7,966 bases of DNA from Gammaproteobacteria bacterium. Lineage in GTDB: Bacteria > Pseudomonadota > Gammaproteobacteria > DSM-16500. The stretch is taken from NCBI GenBank assembly GCA_021323555.1, contig JAJONP010000091.1, positions 1 through 7,966 on the forward strand, given 5' to 3'. A model generated the notes under the pieces. That model did not search any database, was not told the origin of the DNA, and was given only the letters and a program-made list of their open reading frames with translations. Below, piece by piece: positions 1-7,966 of this stretch (positions are counted from its first letter, which is position 1; every line of letters starts with the position of its first letter). The position numbers were made by a program, and so were the translations under genes.

Positions 1-750
1 AAGTACAACCAAGCGATCTTTTCCATTCTTCACCAGTCTTTTGTCTTTACCATACACTCTAATAAAAGCCGGTATGATAAACACTGAAGTATTACACTCT
101 GGAATTTGTATTTCCCATTCCCACTTTAATTGGCACACTTCTTGTTCGCGGCATCCCGTATTAACTTTGAACATTGCCATATCATAGAGATGAGATGGTA
201 ATTCACTGAATAAACGGTCTTGCTCACTCCAAGACAGTGGATAAGGTGCGCGAGCATCGTATACAGGCAACAATTTAATTTTAGGTGCCTGTTGTAACCA
301 ACTTAAACCATTCTCATCTAACCACTCTGTCGCTGCCAAATTTAATATATGTCTGACAACTTCTAAGGCGTTATTAATGGTTTTGGTTTTACGGCCTTGT
401 TCTTGCCTTGATACAATAAAAGGCTGTAACGTTCCGCTATGCACTTGATCCAGCGCCAACTTCCCAATAAACTGGCAAAGTAGCTTGAGGTGCAACGCGT
501 CATCTTCAATGCTGGCTTTATGCTTGTTCTCAAGCAAATATTTTGTCGCCGCCTCGTGAAAACTCCGTTTTGGTCTCACCCCATAAACTGCCGCTTGCCT
601 GATCTCATCAGAGCGTCGCGCCAAGTAGCGTTCTGCTTCTTCCAGATCATCCGTGCCAGTACTTTCACAGATCCGCTGACCCATTATCGTTTTATCAATG
701 TGCCAGTGGTTGCCTCGCTTATAAATGCCAGGCGTCTTTTTTCGCCCCAT
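1..750 (-). CDS. Tyrosine recombinase (phage/ICE integrase), 5' part only
   Basis: This is the N-terminal 250 codons of a site-specific tyrosine recombinase; the gene runs off the left edge, so the C-terminal catalytic half is missing. It would integrate and excise the element at a chromosomal attachment site. Translating the reverse strand from the ATG at 750 gives an uninterrupted frame. It begins MGRKKTPGIYKRGNHWHI, a typical basic N-terminal arm-binding start, followed by an SAM-like core-binding region (about residues 65-130). The box I motif NTGCREQEVCQLKW (about residues 200-213) carries the first catalytic Arg. The start is supported by GGAGG (plus-strand 759-763) 8 nt upstream. The remaining catalytic residues (H-x-x-R and Tyr) lie outside the window. 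The gene lies downstream of, and in the same direction as, the small HTH gene at 912-1274. The attachment site is probably beyond the left edge. Confidence 0.93.
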   Translation of the reverse strand, partial: MGRKKTPGIYKRGNHWHIDKTIMGQRICESTGTDDLEEAERYLARRSDEIRQAAVYGVRPKRSFHEAATKYLLENKHKASIEDDALHLKLLCQFIGKLALDQVHSGTLQPFIVSRQEQGRKTKTINNALEVVRHILNLAATEWLDENGLSWLQQAPKIKLLPVYDARAPYPLSWSEQDRLFSELPSHLYDMAMFKVNTGCREQEVCQLKWEWEIQIPECNTSVFIIPAFIRVYGKDKRLVKNGKDRLVVL

Positions 751-911: not shown

Positions 912-1274
912 TCAAGAAGAAGAATCATCTTTCTGTTGTTTACTTGTTTTGATCAAATCAACTGCAGCATAAAAACCTGCCTCTGATGATTGCATAATTT
1001 TTTTCTTTTTGTGTGTTGGTTGATGAGTACGATGGCTTTTTAAATGATTTGAGGATTTTATAAAAGCGTATTTTTTAGGTAACTTATTCTGTAATTTATA
1101 AGATTGAACCCAAGCATCTAAATTTTCTCGCTCAAAAGCAACTCCTTGTTTTCCAATTTTGATTTCATCGATAAAAGGTCTTACTTCTCGATTAAAACGA
1201 TGTTTATCCATACCAAGATACTGCGGTGCATCCCGCATTCTAATTAGCTTAGGTAGTATGATAGATTTTGACAT
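912..1274 (-). CDS. Excisionase/AlpA-like winged-helix DNA-binding protein
   Basis: This 120-aa basic protein carries an N-terminal winged helix-turn-helix of the excisionase/AlpA type. Residues 10-58 include LIRMRDAPQYLGMDKHRFNREV, followed by a wing-like IGKQGVAF and then NLDAWV. That pattern is typical of small proteins encoded next to integrases in proteobacterial islands. The C-terminal half (60-120) is Lys/His/Ser-rich and of unknown role. Likely roles are recombination directionality factor (excision) or repressor of the adjacent promoters. The start at 1274 is preferred over an in-frame ATG at 1310 because AAGGAG (plus 1282-1287) lies 7 nt upstream and homology begins just after it. 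It is co-directional with the integrase (161-bp gap) and divergent from the regulatory operon starting at 1724. The DNA-binding fold is fairly secure; the excision role is inferred from position. Confidence 0.72.
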   Translation of the reverse strand: MSKSIILPKLIRMRDAPQYLGMDKHRFNREVRPFIDEIKIGKQGVAFERENLDAWVQSYKLQNKLPKKYAFIKSSNHLKSHRTHQPTHKKKKIMQSSEAGFYAAVDLIKTSKQQKDDSSS

Positions 1275-1431
1275 GATGGTTCTCCTTTTTATTAAACAAT
1301 AACTGTCCATGTTAGATAAGTTGGTAGCTCTCTCATTCCGATTTGTCTTGGATGTCGAATTAGGCTTGACATCATCTTTTAGTCTTTACCTTATTCGATG
1401 ATTTATCTTAATAGAATTCAGCAGAAAAAAG

Positions 1432-1605: not shown

Positions 1606-1723
1606 CTTTTTGCTGAAAAATTCAGTTAAGATATCCTTTCATCTCAAAAAAATATAGGAATTGATCTGGCTATTCTACAAGGAGGCTTGCGAACAAGAGG
1701 ATTTTACTCTAAGGATGGAAGCC

Positions 1724-2770
1724 ATGCCAGCAAAGGATGTGAATGAAGAGTTAATAGAAAAGCAGAAAAGGATATTGTTAGAGATAGTTCGTTTATTGGG
1801 TAGCCGTGCGGTTATTGCGCGAATATTAAAAATAGAACGTTCTCAAGTTAGCCGATGGATGAATGGTGAGAAAAGAAGAAGATTAGGCCGCCGATGGGTT
1901 CCTATTCCCTACGAACACGCCTTACGTTTAAGTAAATTAACTCATTTTTCTATCAAGGAATTAGCTCCTTATTGCGAATGGGCTAACGAATTTTTAGAAC
2001 CTTTATTGCTTGAGATTGTCATGCGTCCTCGCTGCATTCAGGCGGACAAAATCTTACATGTCAAAAAAACCTCCTATTCTTTATTTGACGATTATCAAGG
2101 AATGTATACGTCGTTAGAACATCCTTTATTGTTGACAAGAGAAAGTTTTTTGATAAGTCCTATTAAGCGCATGCAAGGGTTTATAGAGGCGAATTACCAG
2201 TTTATACCTGTTTTTATAATAGATCTGAACAGCCTGTATAAGAAAGAAATCGATATTTCGATGTTTGATCCGCCACTCTTATTGTGTGATTTGGTTGCCC
2301 TAGGGCTGTGGCTAGAAGATTTTGTGGTGGAAAAAATGAGAGGCTTTTTTGAAGAAAATAACATTAATATGGGATTTGAGCTGGAACCATCCTATCCTGT
2401 CATTCAAAAAGATAGAGATTGTTCTTGCAGCAAAAAGCTTTCTTGTACCAGAAAATTATCTGTTTTAGGAGGATCTACAGAAGAGAGACAATATTTTGAA
2501 TTAAGGGTTAGGACCAATAAAAACTCTCGTTTTGAAGGAGATATTTGTTTAAATAATAAAAAAATATATTTTAATGAAATTAATACAGAAGAAAAGAAGC
2601 TAAAATTTGTTGCAAACCGTATGGGATTTGAAGATGAGAAGCATTATTGTGATGCAAGAAATTTAGCTCAATATGGTAATAAGGGTTTGTTGGAAAAGGT
2701 TGAAGGGGGACAGGTCTTGATAGAAGAAGCTAGTCAGATATTGAAGGGAACTTCTATATTGAAATGTTAA
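1724..2770 (+). CDS. HTH-domain regulatory protein with unrecognised C-terminal part
   Basis: This 348-aa protein is first in the rightward regulatory operon. Residues 24-50 form a Cro/YdaS-like helix-turn-helix (LGSRAVIARILKIERSQVSRW), followed by a basic stretch KRRRLGRRW and IPYEHALRLSKLT, typical of YdaS/Cro domains. The rest is not recognised. A middle region around 135-165 (LLLTRESFLISPIKRMQGFI, then IPVFIID) faintly recalls a ParB N-terminal domain. Three cysteines cluster at 233-241. The C-terminus ends in a mixed charged region. The start at 1724 is chosen because AAGGA (1711-1715) lies 8 nt upstream. An upstream in-frame TTG at 1661 has AGGA only one base away, and the ATG at 1715 has poor spacing. 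The protein occupies the position of the phage-repressor-like regulator in Legionella ICE regulatory loci, but lacks an S24 peptidase region. The role as regulator of the divergent region is inferred. Confidence 0.7.
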   Translation: MPAKDVNEELIEKQKRILLEIVRLLGSRAVIARILKIERSQVSRWMNGEKRRRLGRRWVPIPYEHALRLSKLTHFSIKELAPYCEWANEFLEPLLLEIVMRPRCIQADKILHVKKTSYSLFDDYQGMYTSLEHPLLLTRESFLISPIKRMQGFIEANYQFIPVFIIDLNSLYKKEIDISMFDPPLLLCDLVALGLWLEDFVVEKMRGFFEENNINMGFELEPSYPVIQKDRDCSCSKKLSCTRKLSVLGGSTEERQYFELRVRTNKNSRFEGDICLNNKKIYFNEINTEEKKLKFVANRMGFEDEKHYCDARNLAQYGNKGLLEKVEGGQVLIEEASQILKGTSILKC

Positions 2771-2792: not shown

Positions 2793-3428
2793 ATGGATAA
2801 GTCTGAAAAAAGTCGATTTTTTAGTTTGCTTTTGGATATGGGTGAAGTTTACAACAAAAAGCTAACGCCCACTTTGCGAGAGCTCTATTGGGATATTTTA
2901 AGAGAATATCCTTATGGTGAAGTAGCGAAAGTGTGCTGGGGCCATGTAAAAGATCCAAAACGGGGTGTCCATTTTCCCAAACCGTCGGATCTAATAGGAT
3001 TGCTATCACAAGGGTTTAGAGACAAAGCGTTAGAAGCGTGGAATAAAGTCCAACAAGCAGTATCTCATGTGGGTGTGTATGATAGCGTCGTGTTTGATGA
3101 TCCTTGTATACATGTACTGATAGAAAAACAAGGTGGGTGGATCTATTTATGTGGGCTAAAGCAAGCAGAGATGAAAGACTATGCACAAACCTTTATAGAA
3201 AATTATATTCGTCTATGGCCCTTCCGCATTGGGAAGTATCCTGCCTGTTTAAAAGGATTGTGTGGACTATCTAACGAGGAAAAGGGCGGTAGGAATAAAA
3301 TGCCTCGATTTATCGGCGATGTGGAGCAAGCAAAGGCGGTTTTTAACGCGGGTCGGCAAATAGCTATAAAAAATGAGATACCCTTTTTGTCGTCATTTTC
3401 AAAGCGCGAGGATTGCTCTCATGAATAA
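2793..3428 (+). CDS. DUF6475-like phage/plasmid protein (possible LvrA-type)
   Basis: This 211-aa protein has the architecture of DUF6475-family proteins of proteobacterial phages and mobile elements. The N-terminal part (1-72) has the pattern F..LL..........YW..L..YP, then HVKDPKRG, then FPKPSDLIG, as in phage replication-associated proteins. The DUF6475-like core (about 80-150) contains AWNKVQQAV, GVYDSVVFDDPCIHVLIE and QGGWIYLC. No enzymatic motif is visible, and the molecular function of the family is not known to me. The start is supported by GAGGGAG (2779-2785), 7 nt upstream. It lies 22 bp after the HTH gene and overlaps the next gene by 8 bp, so the three are probably co-transcribed and translationally coupled. 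By position it may correspond to LvrA of Legionella ICEs; I have not verified this. Confidence 0.72.
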   Translation: MDKSEKSRFFSLLLDMGEVYNKKLTPTLRELYWDILREYPYGEVAKVCWGHVKDPKRGVHFPKPSDLIGLLSQGFRDKALEAWNKVQQAVSHVGVYDSVVFDDPCIHVLIEKQGGWIYLCGLKQAEMKDYAQTFIENYIRLWPFRIGKYPACLKGLCGLSNEEKGGRNKMPRFIGDVEQAKAVFNAGRQIAIKNEIPFLSSFSKREDCSHE

Positions 3429-3837
3429 AATAGATGTCATTGATGTTCACGAGCTAGAACCGTTATTAGAAGCATGGGGGAGGTGGGCAGGAGAACGAAT
3501 AACCCCCCATTTAGGTTATCATCGTGTTAATATTATTCCTATTACTCGAAAACACCCGCCAGACTTTACGATAACGATGAGGTTGGAAAGCCTGGAGGTG
3601 AGCGAAGCGGCCATTGAATATATGGAGCAAGTTATCTGCCTTTTATGTACACATCAACCCATTTTGGGCGACATTATTATTGAAGAGTATGCCAGCAATC
3701 GCGGCATACACAGTCAGCGTGAGAGAGCTTCTCGCAGGGGGCTTTCCCAAACAGAATATCGAAGGCGACTATTACATGCCCAGCAATGGCTATGTGGATA
3801 TTTTACAGGAAGTTTTCTCAATGAACATGCTGCCTAA
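3421..3837 (+). CDS. Phage 21 Q-like antiterminator (possible LvrB-type)
   Basis: This 138-aa protein resembles the short Q antiterminators of phages 21 and 82 (Phage_antitermQ type). The N-terminus LEPLLEAWGRWAGE (12-25) matches the family's L-x-x-WG-x-WA opening. The C-terminal half (about 66-130) follows the family's HTH layout. It has a helix with IICLL-like VICLLC, then IIIEEYASNRGIHSQRERAS, then LSQTEYRRRLLHAQQWLCGY, which parallels the Y-Y...A...S-x-x-x-x-x-x-x-L-x-x-A-E pattern of Q21. Such proteins bind a Q-binding element at a late promoter, load on paused RNA polymerase and make it ignore terminators. The start at 3421 has GAGGA (3408-3412) 8 nt upstream and overlaps the preceding gene by 8 bp. 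Directly downstream lies a leader with a strong promoter and intrinsic terminator, as in lambdoid phages. It may correspond to LvrB by position. The resemblance is recalled, not searched. Confidence 0.65.
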   Translation: MNKIDVIDVHELEPLLEAWGRWAGERITPHLGYHRVNIIPITRKHPPDFTITMRLESLEVSEAAIEYMEQVICLLCTHQPILGDIIIEEYASNRGIHSQRERASRRGLSQTEYRRRLLHAQQWLCGYFTGSFLNEHAA

Positions 3838-3875
3838 ACATTACGCTTAAAGTAATTCTTATTTTTTATCATGAG

Positions 3876-3903
3876 TTGACTTTTACAGTAGATTGATTAG
3901 TAT
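3876..3903 (+). promoter_or_regulatory. Weak promoter-like element
   Basis: TTGACT (3876-3881) is separated by 16 nt from TAGTAT (3898-3903), giving 5/6 and 4/6 matches to the sigma-70 hexamers. If active it would make an RNA of about 80 nt ending at the 3954-3990 terminator. In AT-rich DNA such matches are common, so support is slight. Confidence 0.25.
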
Positions 3904-3953
3904 TTGCTTTGTTAGAAGAAGCCTTATGTTAAAACAAACTTACCGTTAATCGT

Positions 3954-3990
3954 GAAAAACCCAATAGGAAGTGTTTCTATTGGGTTTTTC
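3954..3990 (+). terminator. Strong intrinsic terminator, probably bidirectional
   Basis: GAAAAACCCAATAG (3954-3967) pairs perfectly with CTATTGGGTTTTTC (3977-3990), extendable by a G-U and two A-U pairs to leave a GUG loop. The descending arm ends in a run of five T, and the ascending arm starts with a run of A, so it could work in both directions. It lies 117 nt after the stop of the Q-like gene and probably ends the regulatory operon. The GGA at 3967-3969 falls near the apex of the hairpin. Confidence 0.85.
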
Positions 3991-4051
3991 AAACTAAAGC
4001 CAGTTTAAAAGCTTTTTTTCATATTTCAAATAAAAATTTTTCAAAGGGTGC

Positions 4052-4110
4052 TTAGCAAGTGTATGGCGAAAAAAGCACAATAAATCTGGCATGTTGGATA
4101 AATGTGCAAA
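4052..4110 (+). repeat. Degenerate copy A of the late-promoter element
   Basis: This 59-bp segment aligns without gaps to 4230-4288 with 47 of 59 identities, 178 bp apart. At the equivalent of the -35 and -10 it has TTAGCA and CACAAT rather than TTGACA and TATAAT, with the same 18-bp spacer. It would therefore be a weak or inactive promoter. Most differences are transitions, as in an old duplicate. Conserved blocks include CAAGTGT, GGCG, AATAAATCTG and TGGATAA, extending well into the transcribed region. Confidence 0.7.
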
Positions 4111-4229
4111 AGAAATATTACTATCTCGTGATGAAAGCTAGTAATAACACACTTTGGTTTTTTGTTATAAGTGTTGATGAAATAAATGTTGGTCTTATTT
4201 AATACATAAAAGTTTTTTAAAAAAAACTA

Positions 4230-4288
4230 TTGACAAGTGTGCGGCGCAAAAAGTATAATAAATCTGTAATGCTGGATAAGTGTGTAAA
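4230..4288 (+). promoter_or_regulatory. Strong promoter (copy B), candidate Q-dependent late promoter
   Basis: TTGACA (4230-4235), an 18-bp spacer and TATAAT (4254-4259) match the sigma-70 consensus at every hexamer position, with a start predicted near 4266. A -10-like TGTAAT (4265-4270) and a conserved GATAAG (4275-4280) lie in the early transcribed region, where Q-dependent promoters carry a sigma-dependent pause element. The spacer and early-transcribed sequence are conserved in copy A, which is where a Q-binding element would be expected. A terminator follows about 50 nt downstream. Confidence 0.75.
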
Positions 4289-4338
4289 TAACACAGTGAA
4301 GCCAGCCATCAAAGCCCAACCGCCGTGTTGGGTTTTTT
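4266..4338 (+). ncRNA. Predicted short RNA (terminated leader, 6S-like of lambda late promoter)
   Basis: Transcription from the consensus promoter at 4230-4259 would end at the intrinsic terminator 4315-4338 to give an RNA of about 73 nt. It can fold further: GTGT (4280-4283) with ACAC (4291-4294), inside CTGG (4272-4275) with CCAG (4302-4305). The GGA at 4274-4276 might interest a CsrA protein. It is either a by-product of the blocked operon, like the short RNA from the lambda late promoter, or a regulatory RNA. No expression evidence is available here. Confidence 0.5.
4315..4338 (+). terminator. Intrinsic terminator between promoter and csrA
   Basis: CCCAAC (4315-4320) and GTTGGG (4327-4332) form a perfect 6-bp GC-rich stem around a 6-nt loop (CGCCGT), followed at once by six T (4333-4338). 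It stands about 50 nt after the predicted start site of the strong promoter and 137 bp before the csrA ATG, so it should block the csrA-tra operon unless RNA polymerase is modified or the hairpin is prevented. Confidence 0.85.
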
Positions 4339-4475
4339 ATTTAAACCTTGTTTTTCTTTATTACCTATTTTTAATTCGGTATTTTTATTTTTTTAACCCT
4401 CATTATCAGAGGTCGATATCTTTTTGTTCCAAATAGGTCACTATTCCCCAATTCCATCGAGAGCAGGAGCCAATA

Positions 4476-4685
4476 ATGTTGATATTGAATCGTTATAATG
4501 GCCAGAAAATATATTTAGGTAAAAACCAGGAAATTACTATTACTGTTAAAGCCATCAGAAAAGGTCGTGTTAGTCTCGGTATACAAGCACCTCTACATTA
4601 CCCTATTGTGCGAGATAATGCGAAGAAAGAAGCTTGCCATCCATTTATTCAAGATCCATCAAAGAATTTGTTTGATTCTATTTAG
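4476..4685 (+). CDS. csrA: CsrA-family RNA-binding regulator (CsrT/LvrC-type ICE paralogue)
   Basis: This 69-aa protein is a CsrA/RsmA paralogue, a dimeric regulator that binds GGA motifs in mRNA leaders and usually blocks translation. The opening MLILNRYNGQKIYLG follows the CsrA pattern MLILTR-x-x-GE-x-x-x-IG, and GIQAPLHYPIVRDN matches GVNAP...VHREE. RNA-contacting L4, R6 and R46 (equivalent to R44) are kept, while the usual R7 is Tyr. The C-terminal tail is about 8 residues longer than in E. coli. The start is set by AGGAG (4465-4469), 6 nt upstream. Legionella ICEs are known to carry CsrA paralogues (csrT/lvrC) next to conjugation genes, so this is almost certainly an element-borne copy rather than the housekeeping one. 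It lies 62 bp before traA and is probably co-transcribed with the tra genes. Confidence 0.92.
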   Translation: MLILNRYNGQKIYLGKNQEITITVKAIRKGRVSLGIQAPLHYPIVRDNAKKEACHPFIQDPSKNLFDSI

Positions 4686-4747: not shown

Positions 4748-5107
4748 ATGATGTTAATAGGGACTGTCATCAAATTAAGACGGCAGAAGGAAAGGCTGTT
4801 TGCCCGATGGCCATCGATACGCAGGGCTTTATTTATTGGCTTTGTCCAAGTGGGATTTGTCTTGTTGCCAAAAATTGCTTGTGCTGCCACGAGTACAGAT
4901 AATATCTTTGAATTTGCGCATGATTTATTTAGTTCAAGTCTTGCCAAAGCAGTGTGTTTAATCCTTTTTTTGGGTGGGATGTTATTAGCTTTAACGGGCC
5001 ATAAATTGATTGGCGTAGTCGGTGCTTGTTTAGGCATGTCTGCATTATTGCACTTTATGCCAGATATTGTTGATCTCTTCTTTGCCGGTAACACGGATTA
5101 CTCGTAA
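4748..5107 (+). CDS. traA: F-type conjugative propilin TraA
   Basis: This 119-aa protein is the likely pilin subunit of an F-type type IV secretion pilus. It has the propilin layout: an unusually long basic leader (1-46, with RRQKERLFARW and a hydrophobic stretch about 28-43), then a signal-peptidase-like site ACA-ATS around residue 46. A mature segment of about 73 residues follows, with two hydrophobic helices (about 66-83 and 86-104) and a small polar tail. F TraA is 121 aa with a 51-aa leader and a 70-aa mature pilin, which fits closely. The sequence itself is poorly conserved, so the call rests on architecture and on its place directly before traL. Its stop overlaps the traL ATG by one base (TAATG), showing translational coupling. 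ATG codons at 4748 and 4751 are both possible starts. Confidence 0.78.
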   Translation: MMLIGTVIKLRRQKERLFARWPSIRRALFIGFVQVGFVLLPKIACAATSTDNIFEFAHDLFSSSLAKAVCLILFLGGMLLALTGHKLIGVVGACLGMSALLHFMPDIVDLFFAGNTDYS

Positions 5108-5406
5108 TGTCAGAGTCAGTTATTCACTATGTGATCCCCAAAGGTATTGATACCCCGTTAGAATTTATCCTCTGGAATGCAAGACATTGTACCGTAGCCA
5201 CTGTCTTTGTGAGTTTCATGATGTATTTAGATCAATTAACACTGGGGCTTATTTTCGGGTTTTTAATCTTATATCTCCTTAATCGATTTGAGCGGCAAGC
5301 TGCCAGAGGCGCTGCCATGCACGCTTTGTGGTCTTTGGGGTTACCCGTGGGATTAAAAGGGCTTAAAAGTTTTCCATCCCCTTTAATCAAACAATTCACG
5401 CAATAA
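5107..5406 (+). CDS. traL: T4SS pilus assembly protein TraL
   Basis: This 99-aa inner-membrane protein is of the TraL family, related to VirB3, and is needed for pilus assembly. F TraL is 91 aa. The N-terminus YVIPKGIDTPLEFILW matches the family's Y-x-IP-x-x-(L/I)D-x-P-x-x-x-L-x-W motif. A long hydrophobic region (about 29-58) forms one or two membrane helices, and the C-terminus HALWSLGLP...LKSFPSPLIKQF matches the conserved H-x-L-W...P...FP-x-x-x-x-x-F end. The ATG overlaps the traA stop. It is separated from traE by 27 bp. Confidence 0.9.
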   Translation: MSESVIHYVIPKGIDTPLEFILWNARHCTVATVFVSFMMYLDQLTLGLIFGFLILYLLNRFERQAARGAAMHALWSLGLPVGLKGLKSFPSPLIKQFTQ

Positions 5407-5433
5407 AAAAATCTTTTTGTCAGGGAAGCACTC

Positions 5434-6009
5434 ATGTCAAACCGGCATCAGTTTCATTTTATTGATTTTGTCGAAAATCAACGGCAAATTGTCAAAATCT
5501 TAAGTCGATGGAACAAACTGTTAGTTATCCTCTTAAGTTCCAGTTTTATCCTGATAGCTTACGTGATGACACACCACGAGAGTTTTTTGATCCCCTTTGA
5601 GTTGGAAGGTAAAGCAAGTATTTCTGCACGACATGCTTCAGATAATTATCTTTCTACCATCGCTTTAAGCGATGTGACGACTTATTTTAATTTTACCCCT
5701 GAGACGATTGAAGACCAATCAGGCAGGTTTTTAAAACGGCTAGATCCGACATTGTTTGGTTCGGTACAAGTCCAACTGGCTGACAGGCAAAAGGGAATAA
5801 AACAAGATGGCTTAAGTGAAGCTTTTTTTCCGGGCAAGATTGAAGTCTTAAGCAAAGACAATACCGTTAAGATGGAAGGAAAGCTCTGGCAAGGTATTGC
5901 AGATAAATCGATAGGTAATCAAACGCAAAGTGTTTCCATCACAGTAGGATATCGGTTTGTGAATGGGTTAGCGTACATCAATAGGTGGCATTATGAAATT
6001 AAAAAGTAA
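5434..6009 (+). CDS. traE: T4SS protein TraE (VirB8-like)
   Basis: This 191-aa bitopic inner-membrane protein of the F-type secretion channel is close to the 188 aa of F TraE. A short cytoplasmic N-terminus is followed by a membrane helix at about 28-45 (KLLVILLSSSFILIAYVM) and a periplasmic VirB8-like domain. That domain includes YLSTIALSDVTTYFNFTPETIE, a typical TraE stretch, and ends YRFVNGLAYINRWHYE. AGGGA (5422-5426) lies 7 nt before the start. Its 3' end overlaps traK by 17 bp. Confidence 0.92.
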   Translation: MSNRHQFHFIDFVENQRQIVKILSRWNKLLVILLSSSFILIAYVMTHHESFLIPFELEGKASISARHASDNYLSTIALSDVTTYFNFTPETIEDQSGRFLKRLDPTLFGSVQVQLADRQKGIKQDGLSEAFFPGKIEVLSKDNTVKMEGKLWQGIADKSIGNQTQSVSITVGYRFVNGLAYINRWHYEIKK

Positions 6010-7219
6010 TAAAAAAGAGAGTTTTCTCTTGCCTTCTCTGCTAGTAGGGCTGCTTATAGGAGGTAGTCACATACCTGCTGGGTGGGCACAATCTACTACT
6101 GCCGAAGCCAACGGTTTTCCTATGCCGATTGAGGCATCTTCTGCAAAACCTGATAAAGAGCTGTTGGAAGAGGAAGAGAACCCTTCAGAAATGAGCGAGA
6201 GTACACCGAATAGCATAAATGATGAGAGCCTCGCGCGGCTTGAGCCTCTTTCAACTGTTATATCCCCGGAACCGGAAGAAACAGTACCGTTTTCATCGAA
6301 TGATAATAATGAAGCGGCTTCACCTGTTACTAGAGCAGATTTACTGAGTGGCGACACAGTGCCTTATGAACCTGCTGAAGCGCAAGGTGCTGACGAAACT
6401 GAATTTAATGAAGCTTATTTTCATGAAGCTTTAGCGAGAGAGAGCCAACAAGTGCAGCTGCCTCCCTCGCATGAAAAATTAACGGTGAATGATACCTATA
6501 GTGATGAAAAAACCAATTGGCTATCGCGCAGTGAATTAAATACCCTGGTGTTTTCAGTCCCTATTGCGCACGTTTTCCAGCCGCATTTACAACAAGCCGT
6601 ATTTAGCATGGCAGGAGATAACAATCAATCGCTTGCCGTAGAATTTGCTGACCCCACCGCTTTGCAAGCTCAATTCGTCGTGTCGTTAAAGAATGGTAAG
6701 GTTTTGTCACTGCATTTTTCTTTAGATGACGTTACGGGGCGTATTTTGACTATTCCGTCTGAATTGTCGGGCACCTCAAGTTTATCCAATGAAGATAATC
6801 CTTTTGCCTCTAACTTGACAGATAACGATTATCAGGAACGATTACTCAATTTCATCAAACCCGTGGTATTGAAAGGTGAGCCTTCATCTGAATGGGCATT
6901 GGTACAGCAATATACCCTCGATGTAAGTCCCAACTCTGATTTTAGTGCAACGGATTTCAAAGAATGGCAGCGAGATGAGTTACGATTACAACGCTGGCAA
7001 CTGTGTGCCAAGGAAAAGCCCGTGACGGTAGTAGCCAGCCAATTTGCAGAAAGCTCCAATATTCTGGCAGTCACGTTAAGCCAAGAATCGTTAGAACCCA
7101 ACGATTGTACTCCTTTAATCATCCTGCGCCAGTCTACAATCGATGAGACCACTGAGTCAGCGGAAGCTGATTTTAAAATGGAAGTTCCCTATAAAATGAG
7201 TGAAAAGGACCTTAAATGA
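5993..7219 (+). CDS. traK: T4SS outer-membrane complex protein TraK (VirB9-like), with enlarged N-terminal linker
   Basis: This secreted protein of 408 aa is in the traK position, between traE and traB. TraK forms part of the periplasmic/outer-membrane ring with TraV and TraB. A signal peptide (1-32, hydrophobic 11-24, cleavage after GWA) leads into a long low-complexity acidic region (about 35-175), rich in Glu, Ser, Pro, Asp and Asn. The secretin-like TraK domain follows from about 183 (TLVFSVPIAHVF...FADPTALQAQFVVSLKNGKVLSLHF) to the C-terminal domain with Cys338 and Cys372, which could form a disulfide. F TraK is about 242 aa, so the extra length is almost entirely the acidic linker. The start has AGGTGG at 5983-5988. 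The gene overlaps traE by 17 bp and traB by 4 bp (ATGA). Identity rests on order plus domain shape; sequence similarity is modest. Confidence 0.82.
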   Translation: MKLKSNKKESFLLPSLLVGLLIGGSHIPAGWAQSTTAEANGFPMPIEASSAKPDKELLEEEENPSEMSESTPNSINDESLARLEPLSTVISPEPEETVPFSSNDNNEAASPVTRADLLSGDTVPYEPAEAQGADETEFNEAYFHEALARESQQVQLPPSHEKLTVNDTYSDEKTNWLSRSELNTLVFSVPIAHVFQPHLQQAVFSMAGDNNQSLAVEFADPTALQAQFVVSLKNGKVLSLHFSLDDVTGRILTIPSELSGTSSLSNEDNPFASNLTDNDYQERLLNFIKPVVLKGEPSSEWALVQQYTLDVSPNSDFSATDFKEWQRDELRLQRWQLCAKEKPVTVVASQFAESSNILAVTLSQESLEPNDCTPLIILRQSTIDETTESAEADFKMEVPYKMSEKDLK

Positions 7220-7966
7220 GTTATCCGAAACGAGATGAGAATAAACCGAATCGAGACAACGCTCTCTTTTTGACGAATGTTTTGAGGGTGTTCACGACTC
7301 GCTGGAAGACGTATCAGAAAAGTCTTCAAGAATCATTATCTGATTTAAGTAGTTCTATGCGGGGGCGGCAATGGCTTCATCGTAGGGTGTTAATCATTAT
7401 AGGGGTTGTCATTTTAGTGATGATTGCCTGCTTTATTTTTGTATTTGATAAAAAGCCTCCAGTCCGCCACGCCTCTTCCTCTTCAGAGCCTATTTTAATT
7501 AAAACTGACCATGACAGTTTACATACCTGGCAGGTGGAATCATCAGAAACTTTTAATGCCCTTTCAGAAGCACAAAAGAAACAAGAGAAAGTCATTAATA
7601 GCTTAAATGAAGGGCTTAATAGTGAGAAAACTTCTATCGATACATTGAGCAGTCAACTGAAAGATATGCAGTTAATGCTTGAAAAGGTAAGTCGGCAACG
7701 AGAGAACGTCGTCTCTACAGCAGGCATTGCACCACAACGCGCACCTGCTTTTATGAACGGGGGTGAGGGGGCTTACTCTCAAAATGGATCGAATCTCCAA
7801 AGCACAGCCACTTTTCCCGCTATGATGCCTCGTTTTGACAAATTGCATGAATACACGCCCCCTGTTGAGCAGTCAATCAAAGAAACTAAAACAGGCAATC
7901 CTTCCGTTTACAGCCGTAATCGCAAGACTGGATGGTTTCCGACGGGAGGTTTTATGCAATCAACTT
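7216..7966 (+). CDS. traB: T4SS channel protein TraB (VirB10-like), 3' part missing
   Basis: The first 250 codons of TraB, running off the right edge. TraB spans both membranes and links the inner-membrane energy complex to the outer-membrane ring. It has a cytoplasmic N-terminus (1-56) and a single membrane helix (about 57-77, VLIIIGVVILVMIACFIFVF). A coiled-coil-like segment (about 113-160, Glu/Lys/Leu/Ser-rich) and a Pro/Gly/Gln-rich linker follow. The final residues in the window, PTGGFMQST (242-250), match the start of the conserved TraB/VirB10 beta-barrel domain, where F TraB reads P-x-G-S-F. The start overlaps the traK stop as ATGA. F TraB is about 475 aa, so about half should lie beyond the window. 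Confidence 0.92.
   Translation, partial: MSYPKRDENKPNRDNALFLTNVLRVFTTRWKTYQKSLQESLSDLSSSMRGRQWLHRRVLIIIGVVILVMIACFIFVFDKKPPVRHASSSSEPILIKTDHDSLHTWQVESSETFNALSEAQKKQEKVINSLNEGLNSEKTSIDTLSSQLKDMQLMLEKVSRQRENVVSTAGIAPQRAPAFMNGGEGAYSQNGSNLQSTATFPAMMPRFDKLHEYTPPVEQSIKETKTGNPSVYSRNRKTGWFPTGGFMQST

Follow-up and report, generated by a model that had tools for sequence, protein, structure and literature searches.

Our analyses of a gammaproteobacterial DNA stretch of 7,966 nt (GenBank contig JAJONP010000091.1, a stand-alone record of 7966 bases; "the window" hereafter means this whole stretch) show that a gene coding for a homologue of the phage antiterminator Q precedes a consensus promoter, an intrinsic terminator, a csrA-like gene and an F-type conjugation operon. 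We are fairly confident that conjugation in this element is governed by a co-opted late switch of the lambdoid kind, working in two steps and, here, acting on csrA as well. This reading builds on computational observations, namely the homology of the Q-like protein, its predicted fold, the arrangement of its control region and the recurrence of that arrangement in other elements. More generally, integrative conjugative elements of Gram-negative bacteria probably use Q-type antitermination repeatedly as a master switch. An entire control region of lambdoid type, made up of a cI-type repressor, a replication-type gene, Q, a late promoter with its pause signal, and a terminator, would govern a conjugation operon that replaces the phage late genes. 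This would hold for two unrelated types of transfer apparatus, the window adding a Q-dependent CsrA layer.

A promoter, a pause-like hexamer and a terminator between Q and csrA

The region from Q to the transfer genes contains the following features.

3421..3837, plus strand: Q-like antiterminator gene (138 aa; its start overlaps the end of the DUF6475 gene; sequence and structure matches)
3953..3991, plus strand: T1, intrinsic terminator downstream of Q (near-symmetric; inverted repeat I2; -22.5 kcal/mol)
4056..4110, plus strand: degenerate second copy of the promoter region, with decayed hexamers (82% identity to 4234-4288)
4230..4259, plus strand: P2 promoter, TTGACA-18-TATAAT (12/12 match; Q presumably binds in its spacer)
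4265..4270, plus strand: TGTAAT, -10-like hexamer, presumed sigma-dependent pause signal (offset common to all five strong Q-linked promoters)
4311..4336 (stem), plus strand: T2, intrinsic terminator (-11.7 kcal/mol, T1 being the stronger of the two; P2 transcripts reach it after about 45 nt)
4476..4685, plus strand: csrA-like gene (PF02599, E 2.9e-13)
4748..7965, plus strand: traA, traL, traE, traK and traB (traB truncated by the window end)

An earlier note on this DNA, made from the letters alone, had proposed P2, TGTAAT, T2 and the gene order csrA-traA-L-E-K-B, and all its features are where it placed them. Pfam identifies csrA, traL (PF07178, E 1e-10) and traE (PF05309, E 1.4e-24), and traA, traK and traB are named by position only: traA has no Pfam match, and the traK and traB models of this analysis found none in the window. 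T1 and the degenerate promoter copy were absent from that note.

P2 is the only 12/12 promoter site in the window. Markov shuffles of the 638 nt separating Q from csrA gave a promoter of this quality in 2/2000 cases, and a promoter with at least 10/12 matches followed 5-90 nt later by a terminator likewise in 2/2000; the P2-hexamer-T2 arrangement is rarer than chance. Across the whole window, promoter-like sites show no excess (17 versus 21.2 in shuffles, standard deviation 5.3) and terminator-like sites a mild one (9 versus 5.8, standard deviation 2.7). The P2 spacer contains a 9-bp dyad, and a TGAGCA direct repeat of the phage 21 Q type was not found there, spacers having been checked by eye and for dyads only.

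A Q-like protein by sequence and predicted fold

By sequence, the 3421-3837 protein resembles Q, weakly yet across its full length. It matches PF06530 over its full length with E 0.022 (15.1 bits, cut-off 26), phrog_79 ("anti-termination protein Q-like") with E 1.1e-4 and phrog_5285 with E 1.2e-5. A first protein search recovered only the protein itself, and, with the sensitivity applied, the collections genome_contigs, viral_contigs, plasmids and phages yielded no close relative. Intermediates from family searches were aligned as A3-A5; among the 14 rows of A5, window protein included, 11 match phrog_79 (best 4.1e-14), 11 match phrog_5285 and 8 match PF06530. The A5 profile, whose 14 seeds include the window protein, recovers 77 proteins, and three of them carry the source name "antiterminator Q family protein". 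Against a profile of 74 of these 77 (A6, leaving out the window's own protein and the last two), hence without its own row, the window protein scores 31.8 bits, the best of 2000 shuffles reaching 7.8. The A6 profile detected no confirmed relative in viral_contigs, and neither the window protein nor the Q of phage CBW1004C-Prop1, profile A5 or profile A6 retrieved a Q when searched by sequence against solved structures.

The predicted fold comprises an N-terminal helix, a flexible ring segment and a sigma-region-4-like helix-turn-helix (HTH) domain, as in phage 21-type Q. Phage 21 Q also ranks first among the structural matches, both for the window protein and, with a clearer result, for its homologue P0003; identity in the structural alignment is 17-18%. 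The resemblance to Q, put forward beforehand as a refutable claim, is thus upheld by a weak but full-length profile match and by structure. Neither lambda Q nor AlpA occurs in the structural-match rows, an absence that excludes nothing.

Q-like genes ahead of MPF_G conjugation operons

A Q-like gene lies just upstream of eight MPF_G (PFGI-1-type) conjugation operons; at L149 (genome G163), for example, it stands directly ahead of PilL2, TIGR03747, TIGR03745, TIGR03746, TIGR03749, TIGR03752 and TIGR03751. The 36 genomes of the order of G163, searched with a profile that includes G163 by construction, contain Q-like genes at 10 places in 9 genomes. Six of these places precede MPF_G operons and one an MPF_G remnant (L166); the others are L170, where a MerR-like gene follows and the contig is short, L174, which lies in a prophage-like region, and L173, to which no context was assigned. 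A separate search of the same 36 genomes for TIGR03746 yielded 6 places in 6 genomes, each having one of these Q-like genes 3.2-3.9 kb upstream in the same orientation on its contig. In a sample of the class (369 genomes), Q-like matches occur at 29 places in 19 genomes; 17 of the 29 places were read in context, the other 12 being partial matches, mostly in longer frames. Three of the 17 precede MPF_G operons, two lie beside a contractile-injection operon, and 12 are prophage-like, orphan, contig-end or unassigned. This sample includes two further operons with Q ahead of PilL-type genes (L204, L205). The occurrence of a Q-like gene upstream of eight MPF_G conjugation operons, including 6/6 of those found in one order (36 genomes), appears to be new: our literature search, with most subscription papers outside its reach, found no report of Q-type control of conjugative elements.

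The loci checked for their surroundings (L149, L168 and L172) have further phage-like genes, namely a divergent cI-like repressor with an S24 peptidase domain in L168 and L172, a phage-type replication protein (Phg_2220_C) ahead of Q in L168, and a LexA/S24-type regulator on the opposite strand in L149. Other members of the Q family occur in prophage-like regions (e.g., L174, L209, L212); labels such as prophage-like and O-like in relatives come from reading the genes, except where a family match is given.

For the window and the eight MPF_G loci, we compared the gap that separates Q from the first conjugation gene with 260 other co-directional gaps of 100-650 nt, a set from which duplicates, sequences containing N and the Q gaps had been removed. 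Under criteria set after several of these loci had been seen, an intrinsic terminator is present in 9/9 Q gaps versus 35/260 control gaps (3/34 in comparable loci, 10/80 in an AT-rich subset), and a promoter of at least 10/12 followed by a terminator within 5-90 nt in 5/9 versus 0/260 (0/80 in the AT-rich subset). Because the tree groups L149/L167/L169, L171/L172 and L204/L205, the nine cases represent about five lineages. The same tree does not place the window Q, and its starred branches require at least two changes for the MPF_G-linked Qs. The five promoters read TTGACA/T-18-TATAAT/A in the window, L149, L167 and L169, and TTTACA-17-TATAAA in L168. In 5/5, a -10-like hexamer (TGTAAT, TATGAT, TATGAT, TATGCT and TAGTAT) starts exactly 5 nt after the -10, versus 3.2% of 278 background promoters. 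The promoter spacers of L167 and L169 contain perfect 14-bp dyads at the same position (an arm of 7 occurs in 0.5% of random spacers); no dyads were found in the spacers of L149 and L168.

Several observations weigh against a Q-type switch or weaken the case for it. The phrog_79 profile also matches in 9/14 control genomes at E 0.1, so that weak matches to it mean little by themselves. L171 and L172 have a terminator and no promoter at the threshold used. In L204 and L205, the terminator counted among the 9/9 is one located right after the Q gene; on re-reading, post hoc and outside these counts, each shows another terminator close ahead of the operon, following a weak promoter-like stretch (9/12 in L205, about 7/12 by eye in L204) with TGTAAC 5 nt after a weak -10, an order that they would share with the T1-promoter-T2 succession of the window. 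Finally, lambda itself, used as a control (L215, with elements that we take to be lambda Q and PR'), fails the offset-5 rule, its AACGAT starting 6 nt after the -10.

As a separate observation, at L148 (3379-5163, 6061-11066) two Q-like genes lie beside a contractile-injection operon (sheath and baseplate proteins), a further late function that a Q-type switch may control.

Early operon and F-type relatives of the window

The closest conjugative relatives of the window are five F-type loci in three genomes (L099, L100 and L101 in G001, L102 in G004 and L123 in G106). The earlier note had asked whether related elements keep the gene-promoter-terminator order: they do mainly among MPF_G elements, but not among these F-type relatives, where Q is absent at 5/5 loci. 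In L100, L101 and L123, the DUF6475 gene lies directly before traA (spacing of -8, 29 and 15 nt), and a LuxR/GerE-type gene stands between the two in L102 (E 2.8e-9) and L099 (E 0.0033, below cut-off). Compared with these five relatives, only the window holds Q, promoters, terminators and csrA in the slot before traA, and the csrA model matched only the window among the loci searched. The LuxR/GerE-type gene in the Q slot of L099 and L102 suggests swappable activators.

Homologues of the DUF6475 gene also occur in phage contexts, where they follow replication protein O (L001, L005) or a primosomal protein (L003). In R997 (L004, of the SXT/R391 type), the order is LexA-type repressor, HTH gene, DnaD-like replication gene, DUF6475, transglycosylase, SetD and SetC. 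The models used detected no FlhC/FlhD-like (SetCD-type) gene among the window's open reading frames, and the Q-like gene occupies that place.

L126 and L128 contain integrase, 912-type (the small gene at 912-1310 of the window), LvrA-type and DUF6475 genes and no transfer gene nearby by the models used; they are possibly remnants or mobilizable relatives.

Proposed mechanism and alternatives

In the mechanism that we propose, a repressor would presumably keep the early operon (LvrA, DUF6475 protein and Q) silent; T1 would end this operon and keep early transcripts out of the P2-T2 region. In the off state, P2 would fire and RNA polymerase would halt at T2 after about 73 nt. Once made, Q would bind within P2 and engage the polymerase paused by sigma at TGTAAT, the flexible N-terminal loop of Q narrowing the RNA exit channel such that polymerase would pass T2 and transcribe csrA and the transfer operon. 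Standing first in this operon, csrA would itself depend on Q. We infer that the early operon is repressed, that polymerase pauses at TGTAAT and terminates at T2, and that Q binds at P2 and brings about read-through; the late-switch reading, already advanced in the earlier note, is supported by homology and fold, arrangement and recurrence as a hypothesis, because a causal role of the protein in read-through is beyond what sequence and models can demonstrate.

The protein might instead be an ordinary DNA-binding activator or a phage relic, with T2 acting as an attenuator that answers otherwise, for instance to CsrA on its own leader. Its HTH is indeed sigma-region-4-like and its C-terminal half also matches sigma region 4, a LuxR-type HTH gene can fill the slot before traA (L099, L102), and SXT/R391 has the activator SetCD in a comparable operon (PMC4344509). 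Yet the N-terminal helix and loop are common to the window protein and 21 Q and are not found in sigma region 4, and terminators recur in Q-linked gaps where csrA does not; we consider this explanation unlikely.

Less probable still is that Q acts on the early transcript, carrying it past T1 and T2 into csrA-tra, with P2 being incidental. Transfer genes can follow from the early operon, since DUF6475 runs into traA with at most 29 nt between them in the Q-less L100, L101 and L123, and a 9/12 promoter-like site precedes T1 (3876-3903); but this site is within chance, and P2 has a full consensus, with hexamer and T2 in lambda-like order. It is equally improbable that P2-T2 yields a short regulatory RNA, transfer being controlled by a repressor at AAGTGTG repeats: AAGTGTGYG-like sites at one mismatch are in excess (9 versus 2.56 expected, 1/200 shuffles as high) and several fall at P2 and its degenerate copy, but this leaves unexplained the Q gene and the same order in unrelated elements.

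Comparison with known systems

Among the closest known counterparts of the Q-dependent switch proposed here is that of phage 21 (PMC6606751), with which it shares a full-length structural match, a -10-like signal after the promoter and a terminator downstream. In phage 21 the Q binding element, a direct repeat, lies between -35 and -10 (PMC6606751), and the presumed binding place in the window is likewise the P2 spacer. The window differs in the low identity of its protein, in the absence of a detected TGAGCA repeat and in having a conjugation operon instead of lysis and morphogenesis genes. According to the same source, 21 Q and lambda Q have no general structural similarity beyond the HTH (PMC6606751).

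The likeness to lambda Q and PR' consists of a promoter shortly after the Q gene and a -10-like hexamer 6 nt past the -10 in lambda, although the promoter begins 42 nt after Q in lambda and 392 nt after it in the window.

Antitermination of a promoter-linked type also has known uses beyond the usual control of phage late genes: AlpA of Pseudomonas aeruginosa controls a cell-death pathway and has no reported sequence homology to 21 Q (PMC9371919), and GafZ of Caulobacter controls a gene transfer agent and is reported as unlike known antiterminators (PMC11150451). Antitermination serves conjugation operons in pLS20 (conAn) and Tn916 (canT), Gram-positive elements in which conAn is a protein plus RNA and canT an RNA (PMC11658703), whereas the window candidate is a Q-like protein. 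The SXT/R391 system would share with the window a cI-type repressor, an early operon with a DUF6475 gene and a transfer activator at its end, but SetCD is a promoter activator that binds near the -35 and not an antiterminator (PMC4344509; L004).

Q antitermination is known from phage late operons; if our reading is true, it commits the element to conjugation here. A strong promoter would stay ready yet silent, and then all transfer genes would switch on together. The end of a phage-like early operon would be a swappable activator slot, occupied by SetCD, a LuxR-type protein, none, or Q. The Q-linked loci also supply many natural Q-promoter pairs for working out DNA recognition by Q.

Other features of the window

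The remaining annotated genes are the following.

1..750, minus strand: integrase gene (truncated by the window end; weak Pfam integrase matches below cut-off; 73% identity to a protein of L082)
912..1310, minus strand: small gene, function not known (phrog_13517, E 3.7e-21; kept beside the integrase in relatives)
1661..2770, plus strand: LvrA-type gene, YdaS/Cro-like HTH (PF15943, E 8.2e-5, below cut-off; opens the presumed early operon; named by position; start codon uncertain)
2793..3428, plus strand: DUF6475 gene (PF20081, E 1.4e-16; phrog_10105, E 9.7e-42)

An Rfam search of the window gave no match, and a search for relatives of the window TraE recovered only itself. The 912-1310-type gene is also present in L082, L100, L124, L126 and L128. 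Legionella islands have been described with LvrA, LvrB and LvrC, the latter a CsrA homologue (PMC3218107); for the window, the lvr names are those of the earlier note. Upstream of the LvrA-type gene lie a perfect 16-bp palindrome, CGTGCGTATACGCACG, at 1590-1605, and GTGC repeats related to it at 1432-1454, both operator-like.
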